Assembly (NCBI GenBank): GCA_902543375.1
Contig: CACBYE010000003.1
Coordinates: 28,501 to 92,500 of the forward strand
Direction of reading: 5' to 3'
Length of the DNA stretch: 64,000 bases
Source of the DNA: an uncultured Pelagibacteraceae bacterium
GTDB taxonomy: Bacteria; Pseudomonadota; Alphaproteobacteria; Pelagibacterales; Pelagibacteraceae
Shown here: piece after piece, positions 3,706 to 60,438 of the stretch
How positions within the stretch are numbered: the first letter of the stretch is position 1
How the letters are laid out: each line of letters begins with the position of its first letter
Made by a program: the position numbers and the translations under genes
Notes under the pieces: generated by a model
Database searches by the model: none
What the model was told of the DNA's origin: nothing
What the model saw: the letters and a program-made list of their open reading frames with translations, nothing else

Positions 3706-3821
3706 TGCCGGCAACGTCCTACTCTTCCATGTCTTAAGACAAAGTACCATCGGCGCATAAAGGCTTGACTTCCGAGTTCGGAATGGGATCGGGTATAACA
3801 CTTTAGCAATAATTACCGGCA
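3706..3821 (-). rRNA. rrf: 5S ribosomal RNA
   Basis: Complement reads TGCCGGTAATTATTGCTAAAGTGTTATACCCGATCCCATTCCGAACTCGGAAGTCAAGCC...GATGGTACTTTG...GGAAGAGTAGGACGTTGCCGGCA; terminal stem TGCCGG/..CCGGCA. Confidence 0.97.
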
Positions 3822-6395: not shown

Positions 6396-6460
6396 ATTTA
6401 ATTTATTTATTTCCATACTCGATCAAATGATCTATAAAATTAAATCTAATTTGAGACTAA

Positions 6461-7444
6461 ATGAAAAAAATTTTAATAGTTGGTGGTGGTGGTTATGTTG
6501 GAACAGAGCTTACGCAAAAGTTATTAAAAAATAATTATGTTACAGTTTATGATTTGTTTTATTTCAATTGGCTTATTAAAAACAAAAATAAGGTTAAAAA
6601 TTCAGAAAGACTTTTTTTAATTAAAAAAGATATTTTAGAAGTAAATAAAAAAGATTTCAAAGATATTGAGATTGTTTGTGATTTAGCTGGAATTGCTAAC
6701 GATCCTTCCTCAGATTTAAATAAAAAATATTCTACAAAGATAAATTATGAAGCAAGATATAAATTTGCAAAAATTGCAAAAGAAAGTGGTGTTAAAAGAT
6801 ATATCTTTAATTCAACCTGTTCAATTTATGGCTTTAATAAAAAAAAAGTATTTGAAAAATCTAAGATTAATCCATTAAGTTGTTATGCAAAAGCAGTTCA
6901 AAAAGCAGAGAGAAAAATTTATTTACTTAAATCAAAAGAATTCAAAGTAAATATTTTAAGAAATGCTACATTATATGGTTTTTCAAATTCTATGCGTTTT
7001 GATTTAGTTATAAATCTATTTACGTATCTTCTATTGAAAAATAAAAATATTTTTATTGATGGTGATGGAAAACAATCAAGACCTTTTTTATCAGTTCAAG
7101 ATATTTCAAGGATGTATTTGCATATAATTCAGACACAGCCAAAATCATTTATAGTAAACGCTCTCTCTTTCAGCACAAACATTTATGATTTAACAAACAA
7201 AATTATAAAAATAATTAAGAAACCAAAAACATTAGTAAAGTTTAATTTGGAAAAAAAAGACCATAGAAATTATAATGTAGGAAGTAAAAATTTTAAGAAA
7301 TATTTTAAAAATTTTAAATTTACAGATTTAGGAAAAGATATAAAAAAAATGATTAAAAATATAAAGAAATTAAATTTAAGACCAAATATAAAAACTATCA
7401 GAGTTAAGTTTTATAAAAAAAAATTAAGTAGATTGAAATATTAA
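6461..7444 (+). CDS. NAD-dependent epimerase/dehydratase
   Basis: ILIVGGGGYVGTELTQKLL, NSTCSIYG, SCYAKAVQKAE. Confidence 0.88.
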   Translation: MKKILIVGGGGYVGTELTQKLLKNNYVTVYDLFYFNWLIKNKNKVKNSERLFLIKKDILEVNKKDFKDIEIVCDLAGIANDPSSDLNKKYSTKINYEARYKFAKIAKESGVKRYIFNSTCSIYGFNKKKVFEKSKINPLSCYAKAVQKAERKIYLLKSKEFKVNILRNATLYGFSNSMRFDLVINLFTYLLLKNKNIFIDGDGKQSRPFLSVQDISRMYLHIIQTQPKSFIVNALSFSTNIYDLTNKIIKIIKKPKTLVKFNLEKKDHRNYNVGSKNFKKYFKNFKFTDLGKDIKKMIKNIKKLNLRPNIKTIRVKFYKKKLSRLKY

Positions 7445-8399
7445 TTGTTAATACTAAAGATATTAAATTACTATTATTGATAAAATTTAGAGATATCAAA
7501 AAAATAATAATATTATAAAAATTAATTAAGAATGATGTAAATAAATTTGATTTAAACTCTTTTTCATTTTTATTTAATATTTTTAAAAAAATCTTTTGAT
7601 GTAAATGAGATCTATCAGGTAAAAATGGATTTTTCTTTTTTATTAATTTTCTTATAATTGAAAAAAAGATTTCAAAAGCTGGATACCATAATAATAACAC
7701 TATAAACAAAGATGAAACATTTTGATTTTGATTGTAAAATGAAATCAGAAAACTTCCTATTATAAATGATATTAAGTAAGAACCCGAGTCACCTATGAAG
7801 TTTTTATTTGTAACATTAAAAATAAGTAATATTAAAAGAATTAAAACTAAATTAACCACTAAATCTAAATCGATGTATAAATTAAATAAATTTGATGCTA
7901 GAGTTAATATTGATAAGACAATTATATAATAAGTGATTACTAGGCCATTTAATCCGTCAATAAAATTTGTACCATTGATTAAAATTAATAAACAAAATGC
8001 TGTAAAAAAAATTGAAAAATAATAATTCTCTAAAAATTTATCGATTATATTAATATCTGTAAAAAAAACATTATTTTGAAAAAAAGAAACAAAAAGTAAA
8101 GTAATTATTATCTGTGCAAAAAATCTTAATTTTGGTGAATTAATAAAATTTAAATCTGAAAATAAACCTATAAAAAAAATTAAAGAACCAAATATCTTTA
8201 ATTCAATAAACCCATCAACAAATATTAAAAATAATATTAGAAAAGTAATACCTCCAGTCAGAGGAAGATTTTTATTTTTTGTTAGCTCTTTATGAATAGA
8301 AAAATTAGGATTATCTAGCAAATAATTTTTTTTATTACAAAGAAAATTGGTCAATTGATGAATTATTAATCCTATAAAAAATTTTAAGAATAATATCAT
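7404..8399 (-). CDS. Undecaprenyl-phosphate sugar-1-phosphate transferase (WecA/MraY-like)
   Basis: LTGGITFLILF, NGTNFIDGLNGL, NFIGDSGSYLISFIIG, FLPDRSHLHQKI. Confidence 0.9.
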   Translation of the reverse strand: MILFLKFFIGLIIHQLTNFLCNKKNYLLDNPNFSIHKELTKNKNLPLTGGITFLILFLIFVDGFIELKIFGSLIFFIGLFSDLNFINSPKLRFFAQIIITLLFVSFFQNNVFFTDINIIDKFLENYYFSIFFTAFCLLILINGTNFIDGLNGLVITYYIIVLSILTLASNLFNLYIDLDLVVNLVLILLILLIFNVTNKNFIGDSGSYLISFIIGSFLISFYNQNQNVSSLFIVLLLWYPAFEIFFSIIRKLIKKKNPFLPDRSHLHQKIFLKILNKNEKEFKSNLFTSFLINFYNIIIFLISLNFINNSNLISLVLTINISIYLIFFYKT

Positions 8400-9160
8400 T
8401 AATTATTGATGGCCTGTTTTACCCTTTTTAACAAATAAAAAAAAGATAAACGTAAGGTAAATATAATTGATACCAAAAAATTATAATGCATTTTTTTGTT
8501 ATATAAAATTATTGAATCCTCGATTTTTTGAAAAAAACTTGAAGATAGAGACTCACTTACATTTCTCCACTTTGTCAAAAATTTTTTTATTCCATAGATA
8601 TTATTTTTTTTTGAAAGTTGTAACCAGAGATAATAATCCTCTTTTGTTTTTTGAGATGAAAATTTGTTATTATTTAAAATATTTTTTTTTATCATTACTG
8701 AAGATAGACAAATATCACATGATTTTATTAAATCATTAAAACTTAGATTTTCTTTAATATTCATTTTCCTTAATTTGTGATCATAATTATCAACAATTTC
8801 ATAGGAAGTGTGAGAAAAATAAATTTTATTTTTTTTCATAAACTCGTACTGAAATTTTATTTTATTTTTTTTCCATAAATCATCTGCATCTAGAAAAGCG
8901 ATATATTCACCTTTTGAATTTTTAATTCCTTTATTTCTTGAAAATCCTGCTCCAAGATTTTTTTTATTTATAATCAATTTAATTCGATTATCTTGCAAAC
9001 ATAAACTTTTTATATACTCTAAATCCTCTAAGCTTTCATCGTCATAAATAATGATTATCTCCAAATTTTTATAAGATTGTGATGTAGCTGATTTAATTGA
9101 CGATTTAATAAACTTTTTTTTTTTAAAATATGGTATAATTACTGATACAAGGCTGCTCAT
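8399..9160 (-). CDS. Glycosyltransferase family 2
   Basis: SVIIPYFKKKKFI..IIIYDDES..NLGAGFSRNKGI..GEYIAFLDADD. Confidence 0.93.
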   Translation of the reverse strand: MSSLVSVIIPYFKKKKFIKSSIKSATSQSYKNLEIIIIYDDESLEDLEYIKSLCLQDNRIKLIINKKNLGAGFSRNKGIKNSKGEYIAFLDADDLWKKNKIKFQYEFMKKNKIYFSHTSYEIVDNYDHKLRKMNIKENLSFNDLIKSCDICLSSVMIKKNILNNNKFSSQKTKEDYYLWLQLSKKNNIYGIKKFLTKWRNVSESLSSSFFQKIEDSIILYNKKMHYNFLVSIIFTLRLSFFYLLKRVKQAINN

Positions 9161-9195
9161 GAAAAATTACTATAATCAATTTTAGTAAAATTTAA

Positions 9196-10299
9196 ATGCA
9201 AAATAAAGAAATTGTAATATTTATGCCGTCAATAGAGTCTGGCGGAGTAGAGAAAAATCTCTTTATTATATCCAATTACTTATGTGAAAACTTTAAAAAA
9301 GTATCAATAGTCACTGCTGATAAAAATAGAATAATCTCAAAAAATAAAAAAATTTTAGTTTATGGACCATCTAGTAATTTTTTAATCCCAAAAAACAGAA
9401 TTTTTAAAATCATAATTTCATTGATTTATCTTTTGTTTAAAATTCTATTTTCAAAGAAATTTTTGATTCTTAGTTTTCAATCTAATATTTTTGCAATAAT
9501 CGTATCTACTATATTTAATTTTAAAATTATAATTAGAGCAAATTCTTCTCCAACTATTTGGGCAAAAAATAAATTTAAAAAAAATATTTTTACATTTTTT
9601 TTCCGAAAAGCAGATGCAATAATAGTGAATAGTTATGACTTACAAAAAGAATTTAGGAAAAAATTTAAGTTGAAATCATATTGTATTTATAATCCTCTTG
9701 ATAGACAGAAGATCCTACTTAATTCAAAAAAAAAAAATTATGAAAGTTTTTTTGATAATTGTAAGAATGTGCTTAAAATTGTAAATATTGGCAGATTAAC
9801 CGATCAAAAAAATCAAATAATTATATTAAAAGCTCTCGCAAATTTAAAAGATAAATTAAGTTTTAGGTTTATCATTATGGGAAGCGGAAATTTAAAAAAA
9901 AATTTACAAAATTATATTGATCAAAAAAACCTCAATGAGAATATTAAAATTATCAATTTTAAAAAAAATCCATTTCCTCTTTTAAAATCAGCAGATTTAT
10001 TTATACTTTCCTCAAAATATGAAGGTCTTCCAAATGTTTTACTCGAAGCATTAGTTTTAAAAAAACCAATTATTTCAAGCAATTGTCCTACTGGACCAAG
10101 AGAAATATTGGAAGGTGGAAAATATGGCCTACTATTTAAAAATGATAATAAATCAGACTTACAAAATAAAATTATTGAATTTTCAAATAATAAAAAAAAA
10201 TATTACAAAAAAGTTTTAAAATCACAAAAATCTTTAAATAAATTTAAATACAGCACAAATTTAAGTAAATATAAATTTCTTATTACTAAGCTAATTTAA
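9196..10299 (+). CDS. Glycosyltransferase family 4
   Basis: ESGGVEKNLFII, NIGRLTDQKNQIIILKAL, SSKYEGLPNVLLEALVLKKPIISSNCPTGPREIL. Confidence 0.93.
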   Translation: MQNKEIVIFMPSIESGGVEKNLFIISNYLCENFKKVSIVTADKNRIISKNKKILVYGPSSNFLIPKNRIFKIIISLIYLLFKILFSKKFLILSFQSNIFAIIVSTIFNFKIIIRANSSPTIWAKNKFKKNIFTFFFRKADAIIVNSYDLQKEFRKKFKLKSYCIYNPLDRQKILLNSKKKNYESFFDNCKNVLKIVNIGRLTDQKNQIIILKALANLKDKLSFRFIIMGSGNLKKNLQNYIDQKNLNENIKIINFKKNPFPLLKSADLFILSSKYEGLPNVLLEALVLKKPIISSNCPTGPREILEGGKYGLLFKNDNKSDLQNKIIEFSNNKKKYYKKVLKSQKSLNKFKYSTNLSKYKFLITKLI

Positions 10300-25832: not shown

Positions 25833-26255
25833 ATTCCCCAAAATTTTTACATTTTAGACAATACTATATTAGAGAACATATTATTTGGTGAATATGAAAA
25901 TAAAATAAATGATAATCTTTTGTCTGAAGCCTTAAAATTTTCATCTTTAGATGAGTTCATTAACAATCTCCCAGAAAAACTTTATACAATTGTAGGTCCT
26001 AATGGAAAGAAACTTTCTGGGGGACAATCTCAAAGATTAGTAATTGCTAGAGCTATTTATCAGAATACTAATATATTAGTTTTTGATGAAGCCACTAACT
26101 CATTAGATAAAAAAACAGAGGAAGAGATAATAAATAAGATTTATAAATTAAAGGGTAATAAAACAATAATCATAATTACTCATAATCCTAAAATCTTACA
26201 TAAATGTGATAAAATTTTTGAAATTCAAGAAGGTATTTTAAAGCTTCAAACTTAA
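25824..26255 (+). pseudogene. C-terminal remnant of ABC transporter ATPase (no Walker A, no TM domain)
   Basis: YIPQNFYILDNTILENILFGE...LSGGQSQRLVIARAIYQNTNILVFDEATNSLDKKTEEE; colinear with the C-terminus of 46819..48546. Confidence 0.85.
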
Positions 26256-26827: not shown

Positions 26828-27349
26828 TCAAATAATATTTTTTTCTATTTTGTAAAAATAATTCTTAATTTTGTCTACACAAGCAAATGTGAGATAACTG
26901 AAAAAAATAGTAGACAAAAGTGTATTTGAAAAAAAAGGAACAGCTAGTAAATAACATTGAATTAGGCCATCGATATTTTTTTCATATAAATCACTGTAAG
27001 TCCAAACGAAAAAATTTGTGACTGAATAAAAAATAAAAGAACCGAAAATTGAATGAAAAATTAGATTTTTGTATGTAATCTTATAAAAAATAAAATAATA
27101 TATTAAACCAATAAGTGTTAAAGCAATATAAGTAAATATCATTCCTGGATATAGACCTATAATAAAATCACTAATAAACATTGAGCTAAAAAAAACAATA
27201 ATTGTCAGAGTAAATGTTTGGAACAAAATTCCACCTAGAATAACGATAGATATAATTGGCGTAAAATTTGGAGGATGCGGTATAAGTCTAGAAAAAACTA
27301 AAAGAGTTATTAAAAAACAAATACTACTATTTTTATTAATTATTTTCAT
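26828..27349 (-). CDS. DUF6580-like small membrane protein (candidate ECF S-component-like transporter)
   Basis: FSRLIPHPPNFTPIISIVILGGILF N-terminal pattern, ~5 TM, directly downstream of riboswitch-controlled TonB receptor. Confidence 0.7.
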   Translation of the reverse strand: MKIINKNSSICFLITLLVFSRLIPHPPNFTPIISIVILGGILFQTFTLTIIVFFSSMFISDFIIGLYPGMIFTYIALTLIGLIYYFIFYKITYKNLIFHSIFGSFIFYSVTNFFVWTYSDLYEKNIDGLIQCYLLAVPFFSNTLLSTIFFSYLTFACVDKIKNYFYKIEKNII

Positions 27350-27384
27350 AATTAAATCTTTATCAGATTTAGATAAAATAAGTA

Positions 27385-29313
27385 CTAAAAATTATTCTTA
27401 AAACCAAAATTAAATGTTCTGGGCAATTGCGAATAATCTCTTACTGTTTCATATTTTTCATCAAATAAATTTATAATATTAAAATATAACTTATTATTTT
27501 CTGATAATTTATAATTTATATTCAAATCATTAACAAAATAATCGTCAGTTCTTTCGTCATCAAAAGTTCTATTTCCATTTCCGTAATCTCTTGCTACATC
27601 AGACCACTTAGTACTTAATAAAAAATTAAAATTTTTAAGACCAGATATCTTAAAATTAGTATTTAAATTCAATAAGTTTCTAGGAACTCTTACTAACTGA
27701 GCATTAGTTTGACCTGAGCTCTTATTTGGATTGTCTTGTTCTGCTCCGTCATAAGTAGAGGTATAAGTATAATTTAAATCGAAATTCAAAAATTTGTTTA
27801 ATTTGAAATTTGACATTAATTCTAATCCTTGAGATTTAACTGTGCCTGGATGATTACCAGCGTCCCAGCCTGATGCTTGCCAACCTTCAAGCACATCATG
27901 ATATTTAATATTAAAATAACTCATATCAATTTTTAAACCTATCTCTGGAAATGATTTTTCAATACCGACATCAAAACTCTCGCTATTTTCAGCTTTTTCA
28001 TTTCCGTCATAACCACTTCCTGATTGATAAAAATAAAATTCATATAAAGAGGGATATCTAAAACCTGTGCCGTAAGAGCTTTTTATTTTAGTAAACTTAT
28101 CATCAAAAAGATATGCTAATGTTAGCCTGTGAGAATCCTCATTTCCAGCTAAAGAGTGATTATCAAATCGCGATCCAAATGTTGCAAAAATATTTTCGGA
28201 AAATCTTTTTTGAAAATCGAAATATTTAGAAGTTACGTATGCATCTTTGTAGTCCATTCCTGTCATATTTTTGTTGTAACCAATTGAATCATCCTCTCTT
28301 TCAAGACCAAAAACTATACTATTATCTAAATTCAAATTGTAGTTTCCTTGATATAGAAAGGAGTATCTTTCACCATAATAGCTATCTTGCTTTGTATTGT
28401 TGCTATTAATTGCAGCATTGTAAATTCTTTTTATATACGTATTTGCAACAGTAAATTTATTTTCAAGATTTTTTAATGGTTTGTGTATCAAACTTATATT
28501 TCCAGATGACTCAATTGCATCCACATCTTCAGCATGGTCATAACTAGGTGAACAACCAAACAAATTAGAAACACATGTTGCATCATATTGCAAATATGTA
28601 TCTGCAATCCTGTAATTACTGTTTAACTCAAAATTATCAAAAAAATTATAATTATAACTAGCTATTATACTGTTATTTCTGTACCTATCTTTTTCATCGT
28701 TATGCATCATTTGAGAAATTCCCTCAGTCTGAAATCTTTCAAATCCAACAAAATAATTTTTATAATCATCACCTCCAGAAATTGAAGTCGATAAATTATG
28801 TGTTCCTTCAGAGCCTGTTAAATAATTTAGATTTTTATTAAACCCAGGCTTACCTTTTTTGGTGGTAATATGAATTGTTCCCCCTATAGCTCCACTTCCG
28901 TAAATAGAGCTTTGATTTCCTTTTAATATTTCAACTCTTGATATTTGACTCGTTAAAATATTATTAAAGTCAAAATCGTTTGAAACACTAGACGGATCAG
29001 ACATTTTTACTCCATCAATGTAAACTGTGGAATATCTTTTTGGCATTCCTCTTAGCTGAATTGCAGAAGCTGTTCCATGGCCACCACTTTGAAAAAAATT
29101 CGCACTTGTTGTCTTTGAGGATAAAACATCTCCCAAAAAATATTCAGTACTATTATTCAAATATTCTTCATCAAATATCACAACAGATGTCCCAACAACT
29201 GATAATGATTGAGGTTTTTTATTTGGTGCAATAACAATAATTGGAATTTCTTTTGAATAAGAATTTAAAGGAAAGATTAGCAAAAAAAATAAAATACACA
29301 CTTTTAACAGCAT
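27385..29313 (-). CDS. btuB: TonB-dependent receptor, BtuB-like (vitamin B12)
   Basis: IPIIVIAPNKKPQSLSVVGTSVVIFDEEYL, GTASAIQLRGMPKRYSTVYIDGVKMSDPS, VEILKGNQSSIYGSGAIGGTIHITTKKG, beta-barrel C-terminus ending in F. Confidence 0.88.
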   Translation of the reverse strand: MLLKVCILFFLLIFPLNSYSKEIPIIVIAPNKKPQSLSVVGTSVVIFDEEYLNNSTEYFLGDVLSSKTTSANFFQSGGHGTASAIQLRGMPKRYSTVYIDGVKMSDPSSVSNDFDFNNILTSQISRVEILKGNQSSIYGSGAIGGTIHITTKKGKPGFNKNLNYLTGSEGTHNLSTSISGGDDYKNYFVGFERFQTEGISQMMHNDEKDRYRNNSIIASYNYNFFDNFELNSNYRIADTYLQYDATCVSNLFGCSPSYDHAEDVDAIESSGNISLIHKPLKNLENKFTVANTYIKRIYNAAINSNNTKQDSYYGERYSFLYQGNYNLNLDNSIVFGLEREDDSIGYNKNMTGMDYKDAYVTSKYFDFQKRFSENIFATFGSRFDNHSLAGNEDSHRLTLAYLFDDKFTKIKSSYGTGFRYPSLYEFYFYQSGSGYDGNEKAENSESFDVGIEKSFPEIGLKIDMSYFNIKYHDVLEGWQASGWDAGNHPGTVKSQGLELMSNFKLNKFLNFDLNYTYTSTYDGAEQDNPNKSSGQTNAQLVRVPRNLLNLNTNFKISGLKNFNFLLSTKWSDVARDYGNGNRTFDDERTDDYFVNDLNINYKLSENNKLYFNIINLFDEKYETVRDYSQLPRTFNFGFKNNF

Positions 29314-29354: not shown

Positions 29355-29520
29355 TTTATTATATGCCGCTGTTAATTTTACATTGCAGAATTAGACTTTT
29401 CCTGGCCTTCATTCAACATCGGACTTTACTGGGTGGCGCTCCGACTTTAACGGTTGCAGGTACAGCCAATGTATTTCACACTGATTTCCCACCATGCATT
29501 TCAGTATGATTCTCTTATAA
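29355..29520 (-). promoter_or_regulatory. Cobalamin riboswitch
   Basis: Complement contains GGTGGGAAATCAGTGTGAAATACATTGGCTGTACCTGCAACCGTTAAAGTCGGAGCGCCACCCAGTAAAGTCCGATG, matching the GGTG..GCAACCGT..AGTCGGA.GCCACC core; sits directly upstream of the TonB receptor. Confidence 0.88.
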
Positions 29521-35318: not shown

Positions 35319-35984
35319 ATGAAAAACTTTTTAGTAAAAAAGCCATGGGGAGAGGAATATATTATATGTAAGACTAACAAGGCAGCCACTTGGCATTTGA
35401 AAATTAATCCAAGAAAGAAAACCTCACTACATTGTCATCCAAATAAAAAAACAGGTTTTATTCTTCTAGACGGAAAAGTTGAGGTCATGATTGGCTTTTA
35501 CGAAAAAAGAGTCTTAAAAGCTCCTGATAAATTAATGATAAGACCTGGTTTATTTCACTCAACTAAAGGATTATCAAAAAAAGATAGTGTTGTTCTAGAA
35601 ATTGAAACACCAATTAACAAAAATGATCTAGTTAGATATAAAGACAATTACGGTAGAGAAAACAAACCATATGAGGGGAAAAACTACATGAAAAAATTAA
35701 AAAATGAGATTATTTTTAGAATCCCAAAAAAATTTTCATGTAATATTTATAAATATAAAGATCTAAAAATTACAGTTGAGAAAATTAAAAGTTTAAAAAA
35801 ACTTACTTTAAACAGAAAAAAAGATACAATCTTTGGAATATTGGATGGAGGGTTGGTTGATAAAAATAAAAAGTATGTTTTGTCAGCAGGTGATATAGTG
35901 AGAACAAATACTGTGAGAAAACTAACTGAAGCTTTTAAAATTAACAAACAAATTACGATACTAACTTGTTCAAAAAGTGCATAA
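35319..35984 (+). CDS. Cupin-domain protein (mannose-6-phosphate isomerase type II-like)
   Basis: KPWGEEYIICKTNKAATWHLKINPRKKTSLHCHPNKKTGFILLDGKVEVMIG. Confidence 0.85.
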   Translation: MKNFLVKKPWGEEYIICKTNKAATWHLKINPRKKTSLHCHPNKKTGFILLDGKVEVMIGFYEKRVLKAPDKLMIRPGLFHSTKGLSKKDSVVLEIETPINKNDLVRYKDNYGRENKPYEGKNYMKKLKNEIIFRIPKKFSCNIYKYKDLKITVEKIKSLKKLTLNRKKDTIFGILDGGLVDKNKKYVLSAGDIVRTNTVRKLTEAFKINKQITILTCSKSA

Positions 35985-36819
35985 AAATCTAAGAATAAAA
36001 ATTTTTGAGAAAGCTTCTCTTTGCCGTCATTTTGAGACTAATGCTTACAAATTTTCAGAAAAAAAGTTAATAAAAATACCTATTTATTTATCTGCAGGTC
36101 AAGAGTTTATCTCTGCAAGTCTTGCAACAATAATAAACGACATATATAAAATTAAACCTTTAATTTTTGCTCAACATAGATGTCATTCAACTTATTTATC
36201 TTTTGGAGGGGAAATAGATAATTTAATTGCTGAATTATTAGGAAATTACAGATTAAGTAATACAAAATGTATGGGCGGGTCTGCTTCAATCTATTCAAAA
36301 AAAATAAATATGTTTGGGCATGATGGTCATATGGGAACTCAAGTTCCTATAGGAATTGGGGCCTGTTTTACATCAAAAAAACCCACCATTGTTTTTATGG
36401 GAGACGCGTCTGCTGAAGAAGATTACGTTTTGGGTGCTTTAGGTTGGGCCGCTACAAAAAAACTACCAATATTATTTATTGTTGAAGATAATAACCTATC
36501 AATTTTAACTGAAAAAAAAGTGAGAAGAAATTGGGATATGCACGATGTAGCTAGATCATTCAAAATGAAAGGTTTTAATTTAAAGGATAGTCCTCGTGAA
36601 ATTGAAAAATACAAAAAATTTTTTTTTAAAGAACCAATGCTCTTAAATATAAATACAAATAGAATGTTTTGGCATGCTGGAGCTGGTAAGGATAGTGATA
36701 AGACATTTGATAGATATTTAAAAGAAAAAAAAATTTTAGGTAAAGAGGCAGAAAAAATTGACAAAAAATTCAATTCTATGGTTAAAAAATTATGGGAAAA
36801 ACACTTAAAGAAACAATAA
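35977..36819 (+). CDS. TPP-dependent 2-oxoacid dehydrogenase E1 alpha-like (stand-alone)
   Basis: AGQEFISASLATIIN, AQHRCHSTYLSFGG, KCMGGSASIYSKKINMFGHDGHMGTQVPIGIGACF, FMGDASAEEDYVLGALGWAATKKLPILFIVEDNN (TPP motif, GDA). Confidence 0.88.
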   Translation: MHKNLRIKIFEKASLCRHFETNAYKFSEKKLIKIPIYLSAGQEFISASLATIINDIYKIKPLIFAQHRCHSTYLSFGGEIDNLIAELLGNYRLSNTKCMGGSASIYSKKINMFGHDGHMGTQVPIGIGACFTSKKPTIVFMGDASAEEDYVLGALGWAATKKLPILFIVEDNNLSILTEKKVRRNWDMHDVARSFKMKGFNLKDSPREIEKYKKFFFKEPMLLNINTNRMFWHAGAGKDSDKTFDRYLKEKKILGKEAEKIDKKFNSMVKKLWEKHLKKQ

Positions 36820-37700
36820 AAGAAATTATAAGAAAACACCTTAAAAATAAAAAAGGTAAAGTATTTGGACAATGCTTAACTGCAGTTGGATGGGTCGGTG
36901 GTACTTTGCCAGAATTGTATGAAAAAGATGGTATGATTGAGCTGTCTATGGCAGATGTTGCTGGTGGAGGAATTGTTACGGGCTCTGCACTCATGAAAGA
37001 AAAACCTATATATGTAATAAGATATCAGGGCTTTAATTGGTACAATGCTCCTATGATCGTAAACTATGCAGCAAAAAGCAAGGAGATATGGAATACACCA
37101 TGTCCAGTTTTTGTAAGAGGAATTGGAATGGAGGGAGGAATTGGTCCGGTTGCAGGATCATCACACCACTCACTTTATTATAGAATGCCAGGATTGAAAA
37201 TTGTGTCTCCTATGACACCCAACGAATACAAAAAGATTTATGATAGTTTTATGAAAGATAATGAAGTTTATTATGTATCAGAACATCGTGGAAGCTTTAA
37301 TAACAGAATAGAATTAAAAAACGATATTAAGGGAAGAAAGGATTTTGTAATTATTGCGATTTCAATTACTAGATTTGAGGCAATTAAGGCTAAAGAAATC
37401 CTTGAAAAAAAAGGCCTCAAAATTGGAATTATTAATATATTATGGATCAAGCCTTTAAAAGTTTCTAAAGCATCAATTAAATGTATAGCTAACTCTAAGT
37501 TTGGAGCCTTGATACTTGATGATGATTATGTTGATGGAATTTCAAATAGTATTGCAAATAAACTAAGTCATCTTACTAATAAAAAAATATTTACTCTTGG
37601 CTTATCGGATAAAAGTGCTGGCTTCCATAAAAGAGTTGATAATTTACCCCCAAACTCTAGTCAAATAGTCAAAAAAATTATTTCCTTAATCAGAAACTAG
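36792..37700 (+). CDS. TPP-dependent E1 beta-like / transketolase C-terminal-like protein
   Basis: IELSMADVAGGGIVTGSAL, GIGMEGGIGPVAGSSHHSLYYRMPGLKIVSPMTPNEYKKI; 28 nt overlap with E1 alpha. Confidence 0.88.
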   Translation: MGKTLKETIKEIIRKHLKNKKGKVFGQCLTAVGWVGGTLPELYEKDGMIELSMADVAGGGIVTGSALMKEKPIYVIRYQGFNWYNAPMIVNYAAKSKEIWNTPCPVFVRGIGMEGGIGPVAGSSHHSLYYRMPGLKIVSPMTPNEYKKIYDSFMKDNEVYYVSEHRGSFNNRIELKNDIKGRKDFVIIAISITRFEAIKAKEILEKKGLKIGIINILWIKPLKVSKASIKCIANSKFGALILDDDYVDGISNSIANKLSHLTNKKIFTLGLSDKSAGFHKRVDNLPPNSSQIVKKIISLIRN

Positions 37701-49661: not shown

Positions 49662-50936
49662 CTAAATATAATTGATAATATAATTTGAGAAATTAACTCT
49701 TGAAATTTTTTTGATTTTTTTTGTAAATTTTTCTACATTAATGTCATTCCTATTATTTAGATCATCATAAAATATAATTTCTTCATTTAATAACTTTAAA
49801 AAATAATCGTTTCCATAGCTTTTCATATCTAAAGATTTTAAACAATATACTTGAATATTTTTGCAACTTTTTTTAATGTCACTTAGGGCTGTGCTTAACA
49901 TGCCAAATGCAATTTTATAATTACAAGAAATATTTTCTAAAATAACATCAGATTTAATAAATTTAATTTTAAATTTATTTTTTATTTTATCTTTAAAAAT
50001 TTTATTAATTTTTATGATATTTTTATCCATTGGGTGATGCTTGATATGAAGCTCTTTTTTATTTATATCATTTTTATTTATAGTATAAAAAAAATTAATA
50101 ACTCTATCTATTTGATTAGATAACTCATCAAAGTTTTCGTCCATGAACGACGATAAAAAAAGTATTTTATTTTTATTGGAATTGTTACAAATGCAATTAT
50201 TTTCATGCTTACATAATATCACATCATTTTTATTATATATTTGTTTCCAAAATAAATAATTTGAATAATAGAATACAATTTTTTTTTCAAATTTATCTGT
50301 TTCCATAAGATTCAAATCGTATGTTTTATAATTAAAAACTTTTTTTTGAAACAACAAGCTTAAAATTACTCTATCAACTATAATATCTAAAAATCTTTCT
50401 TTAACATTAGAAAATTTTTTAATTAAATTTTTTTCTTTTTTTCTTCTATTTTCGCTATAAATTCTAAGCTTATGAAGCTTTGTTAAAAACCTTTCCAATT
50501 TTTGACCTTGAAGAATTTTTTTGAAAACTTTTAAATTTAATGCAATAGATCCTGTCGTTATTCCTAATTTTTTACATTCTTTTGAAAGATAGTTTTCAAG
50601 AATAATTCTTTGCCATATAAAAAAATTATTATCAGAAATACAAATCTCAAAATCTTTAAATAATATTTTCTTTTTGATTTTTAAAAGATAAATATGATTA
50701 TAAATTATTCTAAATAAAGATCTTTTATTATCTGTTCCATAATATGGGATAATAAAAATCTTAATATTATTAATTTTTTTTAATGTTATTTTGTTTATTT
50801 TATATTTAGTTGAAAGAGTATTATTACTTGTTAAAATAGTAATATCAAATTTATCTTTTAATTTATTAAGATCATGTAAATAATTTTTAATCATATAAAA
50901 ATTATTCAAACAAAATAATAGTTTTTTTTTCTTCAT
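49662..50936 (-). CDS. Putative polysaccharide transferase/hypothetical protein
   Basis: Rossmann-like; ELHIKHHPMDKNIIKINKIF; resembles sialyl/capsule transferase pattern but not certain. Confidence 0.35.
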   Translation of the reverse strand: MKKKKLLFCLNNFYMIKNYLHDLNKLKDKFDITILTSNNTLSTKYKINKITLKKINNIKIFIIPYYGTDNKRSLFRIIYNHIYLLKIKKKILFKDFEICISDNNFFIWQRIILENYLSKECKKLGITTGSIALNLKVFKKILQGQKLERFLTKLHKLRIYSENRRKKEKNLIKKFSNVKERFLDIIVDRVILSLLFQKKVFNYKTYDLNLMETDKFEKKIVFYYSNYLFWKQIYNKNDVILCKHENNCICNNSNKNKILFLSSFMDENFDELSNQIDRVINFFYTINKNDINKKELHIKHHPMDKNIIKINKIFKDKIKNKFKIKFIKSDVILENISCNYKIAFGMLSTALSDIKKSCKNIQVYCLKSLDMKSYGNDYFLKLLNEEIIFYDDLNNRNDINVEKFTKKIKKISRVNFSNYIINYI

Positions 50937-52778: not shown

Positions 52779-52781
52779 AAA

Positions 52782-53618
52782 TTATTCCCAATATCTAAGT
52801 TTTTTAGCTACTGGCTTTTCACATTCTAATATTTTTTTTTCTTTTGATGAGCCAATGACTATTGGGATTTTTCTTACAATAGAAATAAGTTCATTAAATC
52901 CTTTTTCTTCAAGAGATGCTGCTTGATCACTGCCATACATGGATCTATCTAGAGTTATATGTCTTTCAAGACTTGTTGCTCCCAAACTAACGGCAATAAT
53001 ACTTGGGGAAACAGAGCTTTCATGGCCACTGTAGCCTACATTGCAACCATATCTTTCTCTCATTACTGTAATAAGATTTAAATTAAGTTGGTCTTCAGGA
53101 CACGGATAAGCTGACACTGAATGCATTAATTCATATTTACAATCATTTTTATTAAAAATCTCCACTGCCTTATCAATTACTTTGAAGTCAGACATCCCAG
53201 TAGATATGAAAGTATATTTTTTTCTTTTTGAAAGAGACTCTAAAAATTCTATATTGGTAATCATTGCCGATGCAACTTTTTGATATTCAAGATTATAATT
53301 ATCTAAAAATTCTAAACTTTTCGTATCCCATGCTGATGCGAACCATTGAATTTTAAGACTTTCACAGTAATTATTTATTTCATCATATTCTTTTTTGCCA
53401 AATTCTAACCCTTCTTTTTGTTCCCTAGTAGTGCTACCCCATGGACTTTCCCTGGGTTTGTCTAGCTCTGCTTTGGTATAAACTGTCTCGATATCTCTTT
53501 TTTGAAACTTTACCGCATCAAATCCACATTTCTTTGCAGACTCAACAAGCTTTTTTGCGATAGTTAAATCTCCATTGTGATTAATACCTATTTCAGCAAT
53601 TATCTTACAATTATTCAT
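52782..53618 (-). CDS. NeuB-family nonulosonate synthase-like protein (PEP-condensing)
   Basis: IAEIGINHNGDLTIAKKLVESAKKCGFDAVKFQKRD, VASAMITNIEFLE, STGMSD, LMHSVSAYPCPEDQLNLNLI, VGYSGHE, LERHITLDRSMYGSDQAASLE. Confidence 0.93.
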   Translation of the reverse strand: MNNCKIIAEIGINHNGDLTIAKKLVESAKKCGFDAVKFQKRDIETVYTKAELDKPRESPWGSTTREQKEGLEFGKKEYDEINNYCESLKIQWFASAWDTKSLEFLDNYNLEYQKVASAMITNIEFLESLSKRKKYTFISTGMSDFKVIDKAVEIFNKNDCKYELMHSVSAYPCPEDQLNLNLITVMRERYGCNVGYSGHESSVSPSIIAVSLGATSLERHITLDRSMYGSDQAASLEEKGFNELISIVRKIPIVIGSSKEKKILECEKPVAKKLRYWE

Positions 53619-53627
53619 AAATTTTTT

Positions 53628-54455
53628 TTACCAAATACTTCTTCCACCATCAATTACTAAATTATGGCCAGTCATATAACTTGAGGCATCTGAACATAAA
53701 AATTTTATAGCAGACTTATATTCAGATTTATGTGCCATTCGATTTAATGGAATAAGTTTTGCTATTTTTTTTTTAAATTTTATTGATTGATTAAGTTCAA
53801 TTCCACCTGGTGAAAGAGAATTACACCTTATATTTGTCTCTGGCCAATAGGTTGACAGATACTTTGTAAGTCCAATTAATCCATGTTTAATAACTGAGTA
53901 AGTTACTGGTTTATAATTTTTATTTTTTTTTGAAGATGAATATAACCTTTGATCAGGAGCTATAACTGAAAGATCTGAGGCTATATTTAATATTACACCT
54001 TTTTTTCTTTTGGACATAGCAGAGCCAAATATTTGTGAACATAACATTGAACCTGTTAATCCAACTGATATTTGCTTCTCCCATTCATTTAATGAAAATT
54101 TTTCAAACGAATTTGAATTTCTAACTACTTTTCCTTTTACTTTTGAGTCAATTGCTGCATTATTAATTAATATTTCAACATATATTTTATTTTTTTTTAA
54201 TTTATTAAAAACTTTTTTAATATCTTTAGTTTTAGTGACATCCATTTTAAAAAATAGGATATTGGCTTTTTTAAATTTATTCTTAATATTTTTTGCCATT
54301 TTTTTTAATTTTTTTGAATCAATATCTGTTAAAATTAAATTGCCGTTAATTTCAAGTATTGCTTCCGCATGTTCATGGCCTAATAACCCTGCTGCTCCAG
54401 TAATAAGACAAAATTTTTTGTTCAATGAAAATTTTTTATCTAACATTTTTACCAA
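53628..54455 (-). CDS. SDR oxidoreductase (PtmA-like)
   Basis: FCLITGAAGLLGHEHAEAILEINGNLILTDID, YSVIKHGLIGLTKYLSTYWP, SPGGIE, MTGHNLVIDGG. Confidence 0.88.
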   Translation of the reverse strand: MVKMLDKKFSLNKKFCLITGAAGLLGHEHAEAILEINGNLILTDIDSKKLKKMAKNIKNKFKKANILFFKMDVTKTKDIKKVFNKLKKNKIYVEILINNAAIDSKVKGKVVRNSNSFEKFSLNEWEKQISVGLTGSMLCSQIFGSAMSKRKKGVILNIASDLSVIAPDQRLYSSSKKNKNYKPVTYSVIKHGLIGLTKYLSTYWPETNIRCNSLSPGGIELNQSIKFKKKIAKLIPLNRMAHKSEYKSAIKFLCSDASSYMTGHNLVIDGGRSIW

Positions 54456-55204
54456 CTTTTAAGTTGACCTCCATCAATTTTAAAAATGGACCCAGTAATA
54501 TATTTTGCTTCATCCGAAGCTAAATAAAGAGTCATGTTTGAAATATCACTTGTTTTGCCAAGAATTTTCAAAGCAACATTTTTATTTATATATTTTTTTG
54601 TATTAGATGGAGATTTTTTCATTTTTTTTGACCAAGTTGAACCATTAAACATAATATTGCCAGGTGCAATAGCATTAATTCTCACTTTAAAATTTCCAAA
54701 AAATTTTGATTGATTTACCACAAACGAATTAAGTGCTGACTTAGCTACAGAATAAGGAATAGGAGCGCCTTTAATATTCTCCAAGCCACATATTGATGAA
54801 ATACAAATTATCGAACTATTTGATTTAATTAGAATTTTTTTTGAACTATTAATAATATTTACTGTACTCCAAAAGTTAATGTCAAATGATTGATGCCATT
54901 CCTTTATATCAGGTATTTTTTTTTTTGCTTTTCCGCTTCCAACATTACAAACAAGAATATCTAATTTTTCAAAATATTTATTAAACTTTTTTATGACCAA
55001 ATTTGCTTCATTGTATTTTGAAACATCTCCTCTTATAGCAACACAGTTGTGCAATCTTTTTTTAGCTATATTTAATTTTGATTGATTTTTACCATTAATA
55101 ACTATTTTACATCCATTGTCCTGTAAAGTTTTTGCAATATCAAAACCTATTCCTTCTGATGAGCCAGTTATTAAAGCATTTTTTCCTTTAAGATTAATTT
55201 TCAT
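54449..55204 (-). CDS. SDR oxidoreductase
   Basis: ALITGSSEGIGFDIAKTL, VCNVGSG, SICGLENIKGAPIPYSVAKSAL, ITGSIFKIDGGQ. Confidence 0.92.
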   Translation of the reverse strand: MKINLKGKNALITGSSEGIGFDIAKTLQDNGCKIVINGKNQSKLNIAKKRLHNCVAIRGDVSKYNEANLVIKKFNKYFEKLDILVCNVGSGKAKKKIPDIKEWHQSFDINFWSTVNIINSSKKILIKSNSSIICISSICGLENIKGAPIPYSVAKSALNSFVVNQSKFFGNFKVRINAIAPGNIMFNGSTWSKKMKKSPSNTKKYINKNVALKILGKTSDISNMTLYLASDEAKYITGSIFKIDGGQLKSW

Positions 55205-56041
55205 TTAGTAAAACCATTTTTTTAAATAATTGAGATTAATTGAAATTTCTTTTTTATGTTGACCTTTTTTTGCTCTTGCTGTTTGTAAAATAAAGTTTCC
55301 ATTATATTTAATTTTTTTTAAGTTAATAAAAACTTCATGAAAATCTGCATCACCTTTTCCCAATCTAACAGTAGTTCCTTTAAAATGCCTATCTTTTATG
55401 TGAACATTTTTAATGAAATTACCATAAGTTTTGATTTCATCCTTTGATTGGAAGCCAAGTGAAGAGCTATTTCCTATATCATAATTTATTCCAAAATAAT
55501 TTTTATCAAATTTTTTTATAAAACTTAAGGCTTTTGTTGGGTTGAAATTTAATTCGAAAAGTATTTCTTGTTTATTCTTTTTTAAAATAGGAATAAATTT
55601 TTTAAGTGTAGATATTAAAATTTTAAGCTGTTGATTGTTTTTAACTGAACCATTATCTACAAGCGGCAGGATTATTTTTTTTACTCCAATCTTTGAACTA
55701 TTTTGTAAAACCTGTTTAAAAATATTTATTAGTTTATCTTTTTTTTTTCCTTTTTGTTTCCAAAATGGTTTTTGCATAAAACAATCGCCAGTTAATGAAT
55801 TAATATCTATTTTATATTTATTTTTTAAATCAACTATTTCCTTTTTTCCCTCTATAGTATTAATTGGATTTTTAATTATTTCTTTATGATCTAATGTCCA
55901 TTCCATCATATTTATTTTTAATTCACGAATTTTTTTAAATTCATTTCGCCAATGATATTTCGGAAAAGATTGAATTTTATTGTTATATAAAGGAGATAAT
56001 CTTCCTTGCATTATCCCTATTTTTTTTTTGTTAAAATACAT
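55205..56041 (-). CDS. Sugar-phosphate isomerase/epimerase, TIM-barrel (xylose isomerase-like) family
   Basis: GIMQGRLSP, NMMEWTLDH, NYFGINYDIGNSSSLGF, NVHIKDRHFKGTTVRLGKGDADFHEVF. Confidence 0.88.
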   Translation of the reverse strand: MYFNKKKIGIMQGRLSPLYNNKIQSFPKYHWRNEFKKIRELKINMMEWTLDHKEIIKNPINTIEGKKEIVDLKNKYKIDINSLTGDCFMQKPFWKQKGKKKDKLINIFKQVLQNSSKIGVKKIILPLVDNGSVKNNQQLKILISTLKKFIPILKKNKQEILFELNFNPTKALSFIKKFDKNYFGINYDIGNSSSLGFQSKDEIKTYGNFIKNVHIKDRHFKGTTVRLGKGDADFHEVFINLKKIKYNGNFILQTARAKKGQHKKEISINLNYLKKWFY

Positions 56042-56470
56042 TTATATTTCTTCAACAAGTTCTAAAAATGCTCCTTCTGGAGTTTTACAATATGTCATTA
56101 TAACTTTGCCATCTGCAGAAACTCTTGGCTCTGAGTTGAATCTTATTTTTCTTTTAATCAAGAATTTATAAAGATTGTTAATATTTTTTACTGTTAAAGA
56201 TATATGAGTAATTCCAATTGAATAGGGTTTAATTTTATTTTGCTTAGTTCTTGGTGAGTTTTTGAATGAGAGTAATTCGATTATTAATCCACTAGAATCT
56301 TTTAATTTAATTGTTTTAACTTTTACATCTTTATATAACATTATTTTATCAATAAGTTGACCGCTTTCGTCTGCTTGTTTAAAAATTTTAAATTTTAAAT
56401 ACTTATTCCAAAATAATAGTGACTTCTTAAGATTATTAGTCACTATACCTGTATGTCTAATTTTGCTCAT
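56042..56470 (-). CDS. VOC/glyoxalase superfamily protein
   Basis: IRHTGIVTNNLKKSLLFWNKYLKF, GITHISLTVKNINNLYKFL, YCKTPEGAFLELVEEI. Confidence 0.9.
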   Translation of the reverse strand: MSKIRHTGIVTNNLKKSLLFWNKYLKFKIFKQADESGQLIDKIMLYKDVKVKTIKLKDSSGLIIELLSFKNSPRTKQNKIKPYSIGITHISLTVKNINNLYKFLIKRKIRFNSEPRVSADGKVIMTYCKTPEGAFLELVEEI

Positions 56471-57797
56471 TTTTAAATATTCTCTCTACACTTTCTTCAA
56501 TAATTTTCAGACCTTCTTTTAGGGCTTCTTTAGTTATAGTTAACGGTGGTCCGATTTTTATAGATTCTCTTCCTGTATAACATAATAAAAGTCCATTTTT
56601 CATAGCATCCTCAACAATTAATTTTAATTTGTAATTAATATTTGGAACCCTTTTATCAAATATCATAGAAGCGATTAAACCCTTCCCATAAACATCAAAT
56701 AAACTTGGAAATTTTCTTTTTATATTATTTAAACCTTTATGCAGATAGGCACCTAATTTTTTTGATTTAAGAGTTAATTTTTTTTTTTGTATTTCTTCTA
56801 TAACTGCAAGACCTGCGCTACAAGCAATTGGGTTTGCAGAATTTGTGCTGCTCATGTTACCCACATCAGGTAAATCCATTATTTTTTTTTTTCCAATTAC
56901 ACCTGACACAGCAATTCCACCACCCATTCCTTTTCCACAACAAACTATGTCTGGCTTTATATTATAATGTTCAAAACCAAAGTTCTTTCCTGTTCTGCTA
57001 AATCCTGCTTGCATTTCATCAAAAGCTATTAAAATATTATTTTTTTTACAAATTTTTGCAAAAAGCTGAACGTATTTTAATGGATAAAAAATAGCACCCC
57101 ACCCTTGGAATGTTTCGAACATTACCCCACAGACATCTTTTTTAAGATTTATTTTTTTCTTTAATTTTTTCAAAGAATTTTCTAAAAATTTTTCTGCTTT
57201 TTTTTCATTTGTTTTCCATGGAAAAGGAAATGGAATATGATGTATATTTTTGTCATGATAACCTATCCATTCACTTTGTTTTTTATTGCCACTCATCATT
57301 TGAGAAGCCATAGTTCTGCCATGCCAGTTACCCTCAAAACAAATTATTCCAAGTTTTCTTTTTTTTTGGTTTTTACCATACATTCTCATTAATTTAAAAG
57401 CTGCCTCAGTTGCTTCTGTTCCAGCTGACATTAGAAATGCTTTTTCTAAACCGTTTCCAGAAAATTTAACTAATTTTTTTAAATATTTTTCCCTTAACTT
57501 ATGTATGTATGCATAACTATGAAGAAAATTATTTTTAAGTGACATTTGAATATATTTTTTAATTCTTGGATTTGAATGACCTGTGTTTGATACAAAAATT
57601 GTAGAAGTGAAATCAATAAACTTATTACCTGCAATATCAAAAATATTAAAATTTTCAGCTTTTGACCATGCAATAGGAATCTGACCATGCATTGATCTGG
57701 ACTCATATTTTTGAATATTTTTAAATATTTTATTAGTTCCAGGTGCAGGTATTTTTGTAAATATCAACCTGTTCTTTGTTCTAATTATTTTTTCCAT
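56457..57797 (-). CDS. Class III (PLP) aminotransferase
   Basis: LMSAGTEATEAAFKLMRMYG, FEGNWHGRTMASQMMSG, IAFDEMQAGFSRTGKNFGFEHYNIKPDIVCCGKGMGGGIAVSGVIG. Confidence 0.93.
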   Translation of the reverse strand: MEKIIRTKNRLIFTKIPAPGTNKIFKNIQKYESRSMHGQIPIAWSKAENFNIFDIAGNKFIDFTSTIFVSNTGHSNPRIKKYIQMSLKNNFLHSYAYIHKLREKYLKKLVKFSGNGLEKAFLMSAGTEATEAAFKLMRMYGKNQKKRKLGIICFEGNWHGRTMASQMMSGNKKQSEWIGYHDKNIHHIPFPFPWKTNEKKAEKFLENSLKKLKKKINLKKDVCGVMFETFQGWGAIFYPLKYVQLFAKICKKNNILIAFDEMQAGFSRTGKNFGFEHYNIKPDIVCCGKGMGGGIAVSGVIGKKKIMDLPDVGNMSSTNSANPIACSAGLAVIEEIQKKKLTLKSKKLGAYLHKGLNNIKRKFPSLFDVYGKGLIASMIFDKRVPNINYKLKLIVEDAMKNGLLLCYTGRESIKIGPPLTITKEALKEGLKIIEESVERIFKNEQN

Positions 57798-58474
57798 ATT
57801 TTTTTTAGGTATTTTAAATCATCCTTTGTGTCTATTTCTTGACTAAAAGGAGTAATAAATGCTTTAGATTTTTTTCCTAATAGCAGTTTATTTTTTAAAA
57901 TAAATTTTTTTCTATAAATATCAATGATCCCATTTGGTAAATATGTCTTATTAAAACTTTGTCTTGGCATATTTAAATCGTCTAATGATGAATTTAGGTT
58001 TTTGAGCGGTTCAAGCATACCATTTTTGATCTCAAATGTTTTATATGCTGTTTCTGACATTTCGTGAACAGATCTTAAAGACGAATAGTTTGATTTTATA
58101 AATTCCTTTATTGCTTTTCTCATTTGACTAATTTTTCTTAGCGGGGAAGTGGGTCTTATATGTGCAATAAAGTCGTAAGGTATGTTTATATTTTTCATTG
58201 CGTGGATAATCATTTCATAATCGGTTGATCTACTAGAGCTTATTTTTTTTGGCCTTAAGATTATTTCAACTTTTCCAAAAGTTTTTGCAATTTTTGCATA
58301 TTTTTTTGAGTCTGTTGATAAATAAATTCTAGAAAATAAATTAGATTTTATACAGTGATGTATTGCCCATCCTATTAATGGTTTATTACCCAGATACTTC
58401 AAATTTTTATGTTTGACTCCTTTTGATCCAGATCTAGCAGGAATTATAGCTATTATATTTTTCATTATATTCAA
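57785..58474 (-). CDS. Acylneuraminate cytidylyltransferase-like (NeuA family)
   Basis: IAIIPARSGSKGVKHKNLKYLGNKPLIGWAI, YLSTDSKKYAKIA, HIRPTSPLR. Confidence 0.93.
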   Translation of the reverse strand: MNIMKNIIAIIPARSGSKGVKHKNLKYLGNKPLIGWAIHHCIKSNLFSRIYLSTDSKKYAKIAKTFGKVEIILRPKKISSSRSTDYEMIIHAMKNINIPYDFIAHIRPTSPLRKISQMRKAIKEFIKSNYSSLRSVHEMSETAYKTFEIKNGMLEPLKNLNSSLDDLNMPRQSFNKTYLPNGIIDIYRKKFILKNKLLLGKKSKAFITPFSQEIDTKDDLKYLKKIWKK

Positions 58475-59667: not shown

Positions 59668-60438
59668 TTATGAAACTTTTTTCAAATAACCTTCGGGAGC
59701 AACGCTAATCATTAATTTATTATCAATATTTTTATCAATTTCAAATTCAGGATGGTTCTTTAAATACTCTCTTACAGCGGTTTTTGGATTATCCCCGACA
59801 TCCCAGGCTTTGTCTTCAAATGTACCCTTTGGCATATCTTCAATAATTGTATCAAATACTACGCAGTAACTATTAATACTAGTAAGCGGTGCATAGGCAT
59901 TTAGTTCCAATAAAACATGATTGTGTGTATGATTTGAGTCTAAACATACTAAAATTTTCTTATAATTTTTTGATATACTTTTTACTTTTTCTATTATTTT
60001 TGGATCAATACTTGAGCCTTCTAATAGTTCGATCCTTGAAACCATTGGATGATTTTCAATAGCAGATCTATTATGTTTTCGAATGTCAATGTCAATTCCT
60101 ATAACTTTTCGATTAGATTTATTTGGGTCAAATTTTTGTTTATTTTTTATAGCTTCACAAATATCTAACAAAGCTAGTGCTGATGCAGACATGATAACAG
60201 ATCCACCATGAGCAATACCTGTTTCAATTATTAAATCTGGTTTGACCTCCCATATTAATTCCTGAATTGCTATCATATCTTGGGGATATTGAATAATTGG
60301 ACAACCTAATGCAAAATAATTATATGAATATTTTGGCTTTGTCGATTTAATCATAAAATTTTTCGATGCATCAATTAATGATTGATTAGTACCATTATTA
60401 TTTAATCTTTGAATTACTTCTTTAAAAAATTCACTCAT
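59668..60438 (-). CDS. CmcI/rhamnosyl O-methyltransferase family protein
   Basis: LIIETGIAHGGSVIMSAS, VIGIDIDIRKHNRSAIENH, VCLDSNHTHNHVLLELNAYAPL. Confidence 0.9.
   Translation of the reverse strand: MSEFFKEVIQRLNNNGTNQSLIDASKNFMIKSTKPKYSYNYFALGCPIIQYPQDMIAIQELIWEVKPDLIIETGIAHGGSVIMSASALALLDICEAIKNKQKFDPNKSNRKVIGIDIDIRKHNRSAIENHPMVSRIELLEGSSIDPKIIEKVKSISKNYKKILVCLDSNHTHNHVLLELNAYAPLTSINSYCVVFDTIIEDMPKGTFEDKAWDVGDNPKTAVREYLKNHPEFEIDKNIDNKLMISVAPEGYLKKVS

Follow-up and report, generated by a model that had tools for sequence, protein, structure and literature searches.

A window of 64,000 nucleotides from an uncultured Pelagibacteraceae (SAR11) bacterium (assembly GCA_902543375.1, contig CACBYE010000003.1, contig 3 of the assembly, positions 28,501 to 92,500) contains seven adjacent genes on the minus strand, at 52782-58474, which probably form a horizontally mobile biosynthetic cassette. 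Its product would be a sugar of the 3-deoxy-2-ulosonic (sialic-acid-like) type, activated with cytidine monophosphate (CMP) and not derived from an N-acetylhexosamine. A more specific reading has about an even chance of being correct: an undescribed CMP-activated amino-ulosonic acid, in which a class III aminotransferase aminates a keto intermediate of a non-N-acetylated skeleton resembling KDN (2-keto-3-deoxynononic acid). The cassette would then belong to a modular pathway family, built around a NeuB synthase without SAF domain, in which an aminotransferase-VOC-methyltransferase module is exchanged for a short-chain dehydrogenase/reductase (SDR). Nonulosonic acids are usually predicted from the genes NeuC, LegBCHG or PseBCHG, and genomes with NeuB and NeuA only are annotated by default as "sialic acid". 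The recurrent gene set together with the SAF-less NeuB would mark a distinct family of sugars in SAR11, an abundant ocean clade whose surface sugars are hypervariable and probably phage-facing. Within the open-licence literature no paper describing the exact gene set was found; its novelty is softened by partial precedents in Serratia and Leptospira (see below).

Gene content and recurrence of the operon

The initial annotation had claimed seven tightly packed, mostly overlapping genes of named families. An open reading frame check of the window located all of them, and a domain search matched each to its family; the gaps from gene to gene (-13, -14, 0, 0, -7 and +9 bp) indicate operon-like packing. 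The NeuA-type CMP-sugar cytidylyltransferase (57785-58474; 229 amino acids (aa); PF02348 CTP_transf_3, 89.5 bits) is followed by a class III pyridoxal phosphate (PLP) aminotransferase, here termed AT3 (56457-57797; 446 aa; PF00202, E 2e-91), the two genes overlapping by 13 bp. Next are a VOC/glyoxalase-fold protein (56042-56470; 142 aa; PF00903, 34.9 bits) and a xylose-isomerase-like sugar (phosphate) epimerase/isomerase, termed TIM (55205-56041; 278 aa; PF01261 AP_endonuc_2, 66.9 bits). Two SDRs of the families PF13561/PF00106, SDR1 (54449-55204; 251 aa; PF13561, E 9.6e-43) and SDR2 (53628-54455; 275 aa; PF13561, E 7e-42), precede the NeuB synthase (52782-53618; 278 aa; PF03102, 221 bits, E 1.7e-65). 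The label "PtmA-like" for SDR2 proved loose: this PRK09186/PtmA-related protein scored 123.1 bits with the PtmA model NF050062 (cut-off 350) and 178.9 bits, also below cut-off, with its best model, PRK09186 (NF006619). It is a distant relative of Campylobacter PtmA (flagellin modification), and the operon contains no PtmE/PtmF-type partners. The listed starts of NeuA (58474) and SDR2 (54455) are TTG codons with an ATG three codons inside, and the actual starts may lie slightly further inside.

TIM and AT3 were searched separately in 386 alphaproteobacterial genomes that had been sampled evenly. Besides the own genome, TIM was found in four, always adjoining NeuB and NeuA, and AT3 in three, all of them among the four with TIM; the probability of this overlap is about 4e-7 if genomes are assumed to be independent, two of them sharing a genus. 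A phylum-wide search with TIM added ten further genomes (14 altogether). NeuB was present in the fetched neighbourhood in 13 of these, and the fourteenth (locus L064) had the order NeuA-AT3-VOC-MT-TIM-SDR1-SDR2, where MT is a methyltransferase. Three distant loci (L027, L062, L063) showed the collinear eight-gene order NeuB-NeuA-AT3-VOC-MT-TIM-SDR1-SDR2. From NeuA to SDR2 the window agrees with this order; its NeuB comes last, and no MT homologue was found. A minimal set of NeuB, NeuA, AT3, TIM and SDR2 occurs in two loci (L028, L029). SDR1 adjoins TIM in most TIM loci, and SDR2 is a frequent partner of SAF-less NeuB. The neighbourhood search which the initial annotation had proposed thus revealed the same gene set beside NeuB and NeuA in many genomes, and the seven genes are predicted to constitute one pathway.

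Within the order, 5 of 248 genomes had AT3, the own genome being one of them. Matches to AT3 on plasmids of Priestia, Ilyobacter and Vibrio (31-33% identity; the Vibrio region is unannotated) were set aside as GABA-aminotransferase-like, and an AT3-like match of 60 bits in Methylomagnum (L018) was not counted. A genome scan with NeuB as sole query yielded only six loci, because its search patterns reach close relatives only; viral contigs gave no match to the NeuB query.

The operon itself contains no NeuC, 4,6-dehydratase, DegT aminotransferase, acetyltransferase or NDP-sugar hydrolase, as the initial annotation had noted. The search for canonical precursor genes was extended to the host genome (G000; 1.07 Mb, assembly about 92% complete), where neither NeuC nor LegB nor PseB reached its cut-off. 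A match to PF02350 (Epimerase_2/NeuC) was absent from this genome and from three others of the AT3 type (G185, G532, G440); in the host genome the best score was 47.7 bits for PseB (cut-off 407.75) and 138.4 bits for LegB (cut-off 475), for which genome G606 was positive. NeuB is present once. The lone full-length DegT gene of the host genome (contig 4) was considered as part of a hidden legionaminic or pseudaminic acid operon; no NeuB-type gene was nearby, its neighbours being epimerases and a malate/lactate dehydrogenase-like gene. Canonical genes and the cassette can coexist, since genomes G606 and G623 have cassettes as well as LegB-like and NeuC-family genes, which lie next to the cassette or elsewhere.

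A NeuB synthase without SAF domain

The domain search found no PF08666 SAF/antifreeze domain in the window NeuB, which stops right after the barrel. Truncation by a frameshift or a broken gene was rejected, since all close homologues terminate at the same place, 11-20 residues past alignment column 266. The protein remained far below the cut-offs of the equivalog models for NeuB_NnaB (TIGR03569; 234.8 bits, cut-off 399.65) and PseI (172.5 bits, cut-off 340.25). Its residues E9, K37, Q39, K114 and Y171 correspond to E25, K53, Q55, K129 and Y186 of the Neisseria enzyme NmeNeuB, and S197, H199, E218, H220 and D231 to S213, H215, E234, H236 and D247; all of these are kept, and the catalytic core for phosphoenolpyruvate (PEP) and metal is intact. 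At the positions of N74, T110, F112 and N184 in NmeNeuB, the window protein has E, S, W and S. In NmeNeuB, Arg314 of the antifreeze domain contacts and positions the N-acetyl group of N-acetylmannosamine, and the mutation R314A abolishes activity (PMC6795526). Since the domain with this arginine is missing, the window NeuB should need no N-acetyl group on its acceptor, and we infer an acceptor which is KDN-like and non-N-acetylated.

In a tree of 38 NeuB rows, two of which were long and rendered some placements unsure, the SAF-less sequences formed one clade of 23 rows (support 93/97), with a core of 18 rows, including the window NeuB (support 96/100). The clade has a loop motif around WG-x-T ... 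K ... EF, which is presumably similar to that of human NANS. Among solved folds, the Leptospira synthetase 6ncs came nearest, with PseI and NmeNeuB next.

Members of the SAF-less group were also seen in other settings. On a contig of the thaumarchaeote single cell AG-464-C10 (L012:626-1450), a SAF-less NeuB with 59% identity to that of the window adjoins a protein of a third SDR family (SDR3, see below); its presence on a marine archaeal contig could be due to transfer or contamination. Marine virus AG-345-L05 (L072; MH319754.1, filed under Kyanoviridae) has at 6355-10136 a run of five genes, for SDR2, a SpsF-like nucleotidyltransferase, a DegT-like aminotransferase, a SAF-less NeuB and a HAD-like protein. 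In Nonomuraea gerenzanensis (L020:7627-9816), a single frame of 730 aa is a fusion of NeuA, a KdsC-like HAD protein and SAF-less NeuB. A plasmid of Methylomagnum ishizawai (L018:4841-10453) carries a split transketolase, a class III aminotransferase, an SDR2-like SDR, a SAF-less NeuB and a KdsC-like HAD protein, a gene content which may point to a pentose phosphate or heptose phosphate as precursor.

Partial precedents are known. In Serratia marcescens KL1/KL2, NeuB is extended by a COG1082 domain; the strains make KDN, with a ratio of N-acetylneuraminic acid (Neu5Ac) to KDN of about 1:20, and neuB mutants no longer have sialic acid (PMC9000132). As in the window, NeuB is associated there with an AP_endonuc_2/COG1082 TIM barrel and with NeuA, and no dedicated N-acetyl precursor genes are described beside them. 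The window operon contains the gene combination of the KDN type, i.e., a short or fused NeuB, an AP_endonuc_2 TIM barrel and NeuA; in contrast to Serratia, TIM is encoded by its own gene and NeuB has no SAF, and the set of AT3, VOC and SDR genes is not described there. One locus from the TIM search (L026) has PF03102, SAF and PF01261 on one chain, similar to the Serratia fusion. In Leptospira interrogans, LA_1613-LA_1615 encode NeuB, extended at its C-terminus by an "endonuclease" domain, together with a PLP aminotransferase and NeuA; the C-terminal domain of LA_1613 was read as a phosphatase and the route as animal-like Neu5Ac synthesis (PMC3438082, PMC4758666). The grouping of NeuB, aminotransferase and NeuA is shared with the window, and 6ncs is the closest solved fold to its NeuB; the phosphatase domain and the animal-like route, as published, set the Leptospira system apart. 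As a lead, which is taken from the family name and not from compared sequences, the extra domain may be an AP_endonuc_2 barrel, the aminotransferase may be of class III, and the cluster may be a relative of the cassette. If this is true, the published reading as animal-like Neu5Ac merits re-examination. With the canonical systems NeuBCA, LegBCHGIF and PseBCHGIF, the operon shares PEP condensation by a PF03102 protein and CMP activation by a PF02348 protein; it differs by the SAF-less NeuB and by a class III instead of a DegT aminotransferase.

Accessory enzymes, proposed pathway and alternatives

The PLP lysine of AT3, K289, is invariant. GABA- and ornithine-type class III aminotransferases use the glutamate of a QGEGG motif and a C-terminal arginine for dual substrate recognition. 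The AT3 family has Trp or Tyr at the position of this glutamate in GabT/PuuE-type enzymes and Lys at that of the arginine; because of these exchanges, substrate and donor probably differ from those of the GABA/acetylornithine-type families. In the VOC protein, H6, E65, H89 and E137 are invariant in 10 homologues, and a metal-dependent epimerase or isomerase is the probable function. A structure model of TIM was made from two sequences (pLDDT 80). Its nearest fold was UlaE, L-xylulose-5-phosphate 3-epimerase (Foldseek E 2.6e-13, TM 0.78, about 17% identity), followed by ketose 3-epimerases and then by 3-keto-glycoside enzymes; with the UlaE model TIGR00542 the protein scored 48.4 (cut-off 272). 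The putative metal ligands E163, D188, H214 and Q253 (E-D-H-Q) are invariant. In fold TIM agrees with UlaE and the ketose 3-epimerases, from which the Gln at the fourth ligand position sets it apart. NeuA reached 116.5 bits with the PseF model TIGR03584 (cut-off 205.7).

Six TIM loci (L016, L026, L059, L065, L066, L068) contain SDR3, whose members are 44-91% identical among themselves, in place of AT3-VOC-MT. AT3 (nine TIM loci) and SDR3 (six TIM loci) never occur together (Fisher p 0.002, with no correction for kinship). Since a ketone can be reduced by an SDR, and a ketone or aldehyde aminated by a class III aminotransferase, the mutual exclusion suggests that both modules may act on one shared keto intermediate, which would be either aminated or reduced. 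Two further loci (L014:4517-12307, L015:2792-11642) have NeuA-AT3-VOC without TIM and with a full-length NeuB. Since AT3-VOC stands here beside a different NeuB, amination is not restricted to a single acceptor. Both loci contain heptose-type genes (GmhA-like SIS isomerase, GHMP kinase, transaldolase-like protein), L015 additionally a HAD phosphatase and a methyltransferase, and their product is possibly a heptose-derived, longer ulosonic acid.

A tentative sequence of reactions can be drawn up. SDR2 would oxidize a sugar alcohol to a ketone, next to which TIM would catalyse an epimerisation or isomerisation; SDR1 would contribute a reduction step. AT3 would aminate a keto or aldehyde position, which SDR3 would reduce instead in other lineages, and VOC would reset an adjacent stereocentre. 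NeuB would condense PEP with a KDN-like acceptor of the hexose type, which may carry a phosphate in lineages with a KdsC-like phosphatase, and NeuA would transfer CMP to the product, for use in a surface polysaccharide. Amination could take place before or after the NeuB step. In this respect the initial annotation can be followed in part: its proposal of one non-canonical pathway agrees with the conserved neighbourhood and the absence of precursor genes from the 92%-complete assembly, while an acceptor-building role of all five accessory enzymes is only one possible reading, since the modular distribution (exchange of AT3-VOC-MT for SDR3; L014 and L015) would be explained equally well by AT3 and VOC acting on a later keto intermediate.

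Several observations weigh against the proposed pathway. Plain epimerisation by TIM is not assured, since ketose 3-epimerases have a second catalytic Glu (E-D-H-E site) where the TIM family has Gln. Judging from L014 and L015, the substrate of AT3-VOC may be common to different ulosonates, or the pair may produce a separate substituent. L026-type clusters retain the SAF domain. KdsC-like phosphatases are frequent with SAF-less NeuBs, yet were not found in the host genome or in three AT3-type genomes. The 92% completeness of the assembly makes absences soft, and the genome samples are of unequal kinship, so that the counts are not independent. Step order and product were deduced from sequences and models.

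Among the alternatives, the most serious, which we consider possible yet less probable than the pathway above, is that SAF-less NeuB resembles a 9-phosphate synthase, i.e., that its acceptor is a phosphorylated hexose, the phosphate being taken off by a HAD phosphatase ahead of the NeuA step. In nine loci (L011, L016, L018, L020, L059, L061, L062, L063, L068), SAF-less NeuB or its NeuA has a KdsC-like HAD protein as neighbour or fusion partner, the TIM fold is nearest to the sugar-phosphate epimerase UlaE, and KDN synthases with phosphorylated acceptors are known (PMC6200933). The loop motif of the clade, if similar to that of human NANS, would agree with this reading. Against this stands that no KdsC phosphatase (TIGR01670) was found in G000, G185, G532 or G440, which is not decisive, as phosphatases are redundant. 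A phosphorylated acceptor is thus plausible in some SAF-less members; as main explanation for the host genome, in which no KdsC was found, a phosphatase-dependent route was held back. It is compatible with the preferred explanation. Rather unlikely is a division of labour in which NeuB, TIM and NeuA make KDN or a simple isomer, and AT3, VOC and the methyltransferase of related loci build a separate amino or methylated substituent, attached later. The production of mainly KDN by the Serratia NeuB-COG1082 protein with NeuA (PMC9000132) and the occurrence of AT3-VOC without TIM in L014 and L015 would agree with it; the mutual exclusion of AT3 and SDR3 in TIM loci, where they are placed between NeuA and TIM, points instead to one shared intermediate, and the AT3 gene overlaps neuA.

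That the operon is an ordinary one for sialic, legionaminic or pseudaminic acid, with the precursor made elsewhere in the genome, appears very unlikely. The homology of NeuA and NeuB to the canonical enzymes and the incomplete assembly leave some room for it, but no NeuC, LegB or PseB reached cut-off, the single full-length DegT gene lies away from NeuB-type genes, NeuB is SAF-less and far under the NeuB_NnaB and PseI cut-offs, and no reason would be given for AT3, TIM and the SDRs tracking NeuB and NeuA. Least credible, to the point of being negligible, is that AT3, TIM, VOC and the SDRs form an unrelated catabolic operon which lies between neuA and neuB by chance. Each of these families is large and has many catabolic members; co-occurrence and collinear order beside NeuB and NeuA in many unrelated, distant genomes make such a coincidence very unlikely, and the setting is a surface-sugar island. 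Hence neither canonical genes elsewhere nor unrelated catabolism, the two findings named beforehand as counter-evidence, emerged from the searched data.

Surface-sugar island and probable horizontal transfer

On both sides the operon is flanked by genes for glycosyltransferases, nucleotide-sugar enzymes and methyltransferases. A 5S rRNA gene (3706-3820, minus strand; RF00001, 85.1 bits) bounds this surface-sugar island, hypervariable region 2 (HVR2), within which the operon sits; in strain HTCC1062, HVR2 is located between the 23S and 5S genes (PMC2217521).

Positions 52781-58182 (minus strand) are shared with the SAR11 cell AG-422-N14 (L007) at 99.76% identity (blastn; 5402 bp, 13 mismatches, no gaps), whereas the pntAB regions of the two genomes are 74% identical. 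The identity does not extend past the neuB stop codon; on the left, its limit is masked by Ns, which in L007 come after a 23S rRNA, in agreement with HVR2. Recent transfer of the cassette would be the simplest reading of this discrepancy between core and cassette. Contamination between single-cell assemblies is a possible alternative; the 13 differences argue against the same cell.

Other features of the window may be mentioned. Within the island, an AdoCbl-II (vitamin B12) riboswitch (29426-29507) precedes genes for a TonB-dependent receptor-like protein and a small membrane protein (26828-29313). At 35977-37700 there is a pair of genes which, read by eye, resembles a split thiamine-diphosphate enzyme of the E1/transketolase type, amid heptose-type sugar genes (GmhA-like at 26252, a nucleotidyltransferase-HAD fusion at 29572 and a GHMP kinase at 32787). 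Near the operon, an O-methyltransferase of the RMNT_CmcI family is encoded at 59668-60438, and a protein of 424 aa at 49662-50936; the latter, which has a weak match to Capsule_synth (below cut-off) and KxHP/SS-like motifs, is a candidate transferase for the CMP-sugar.

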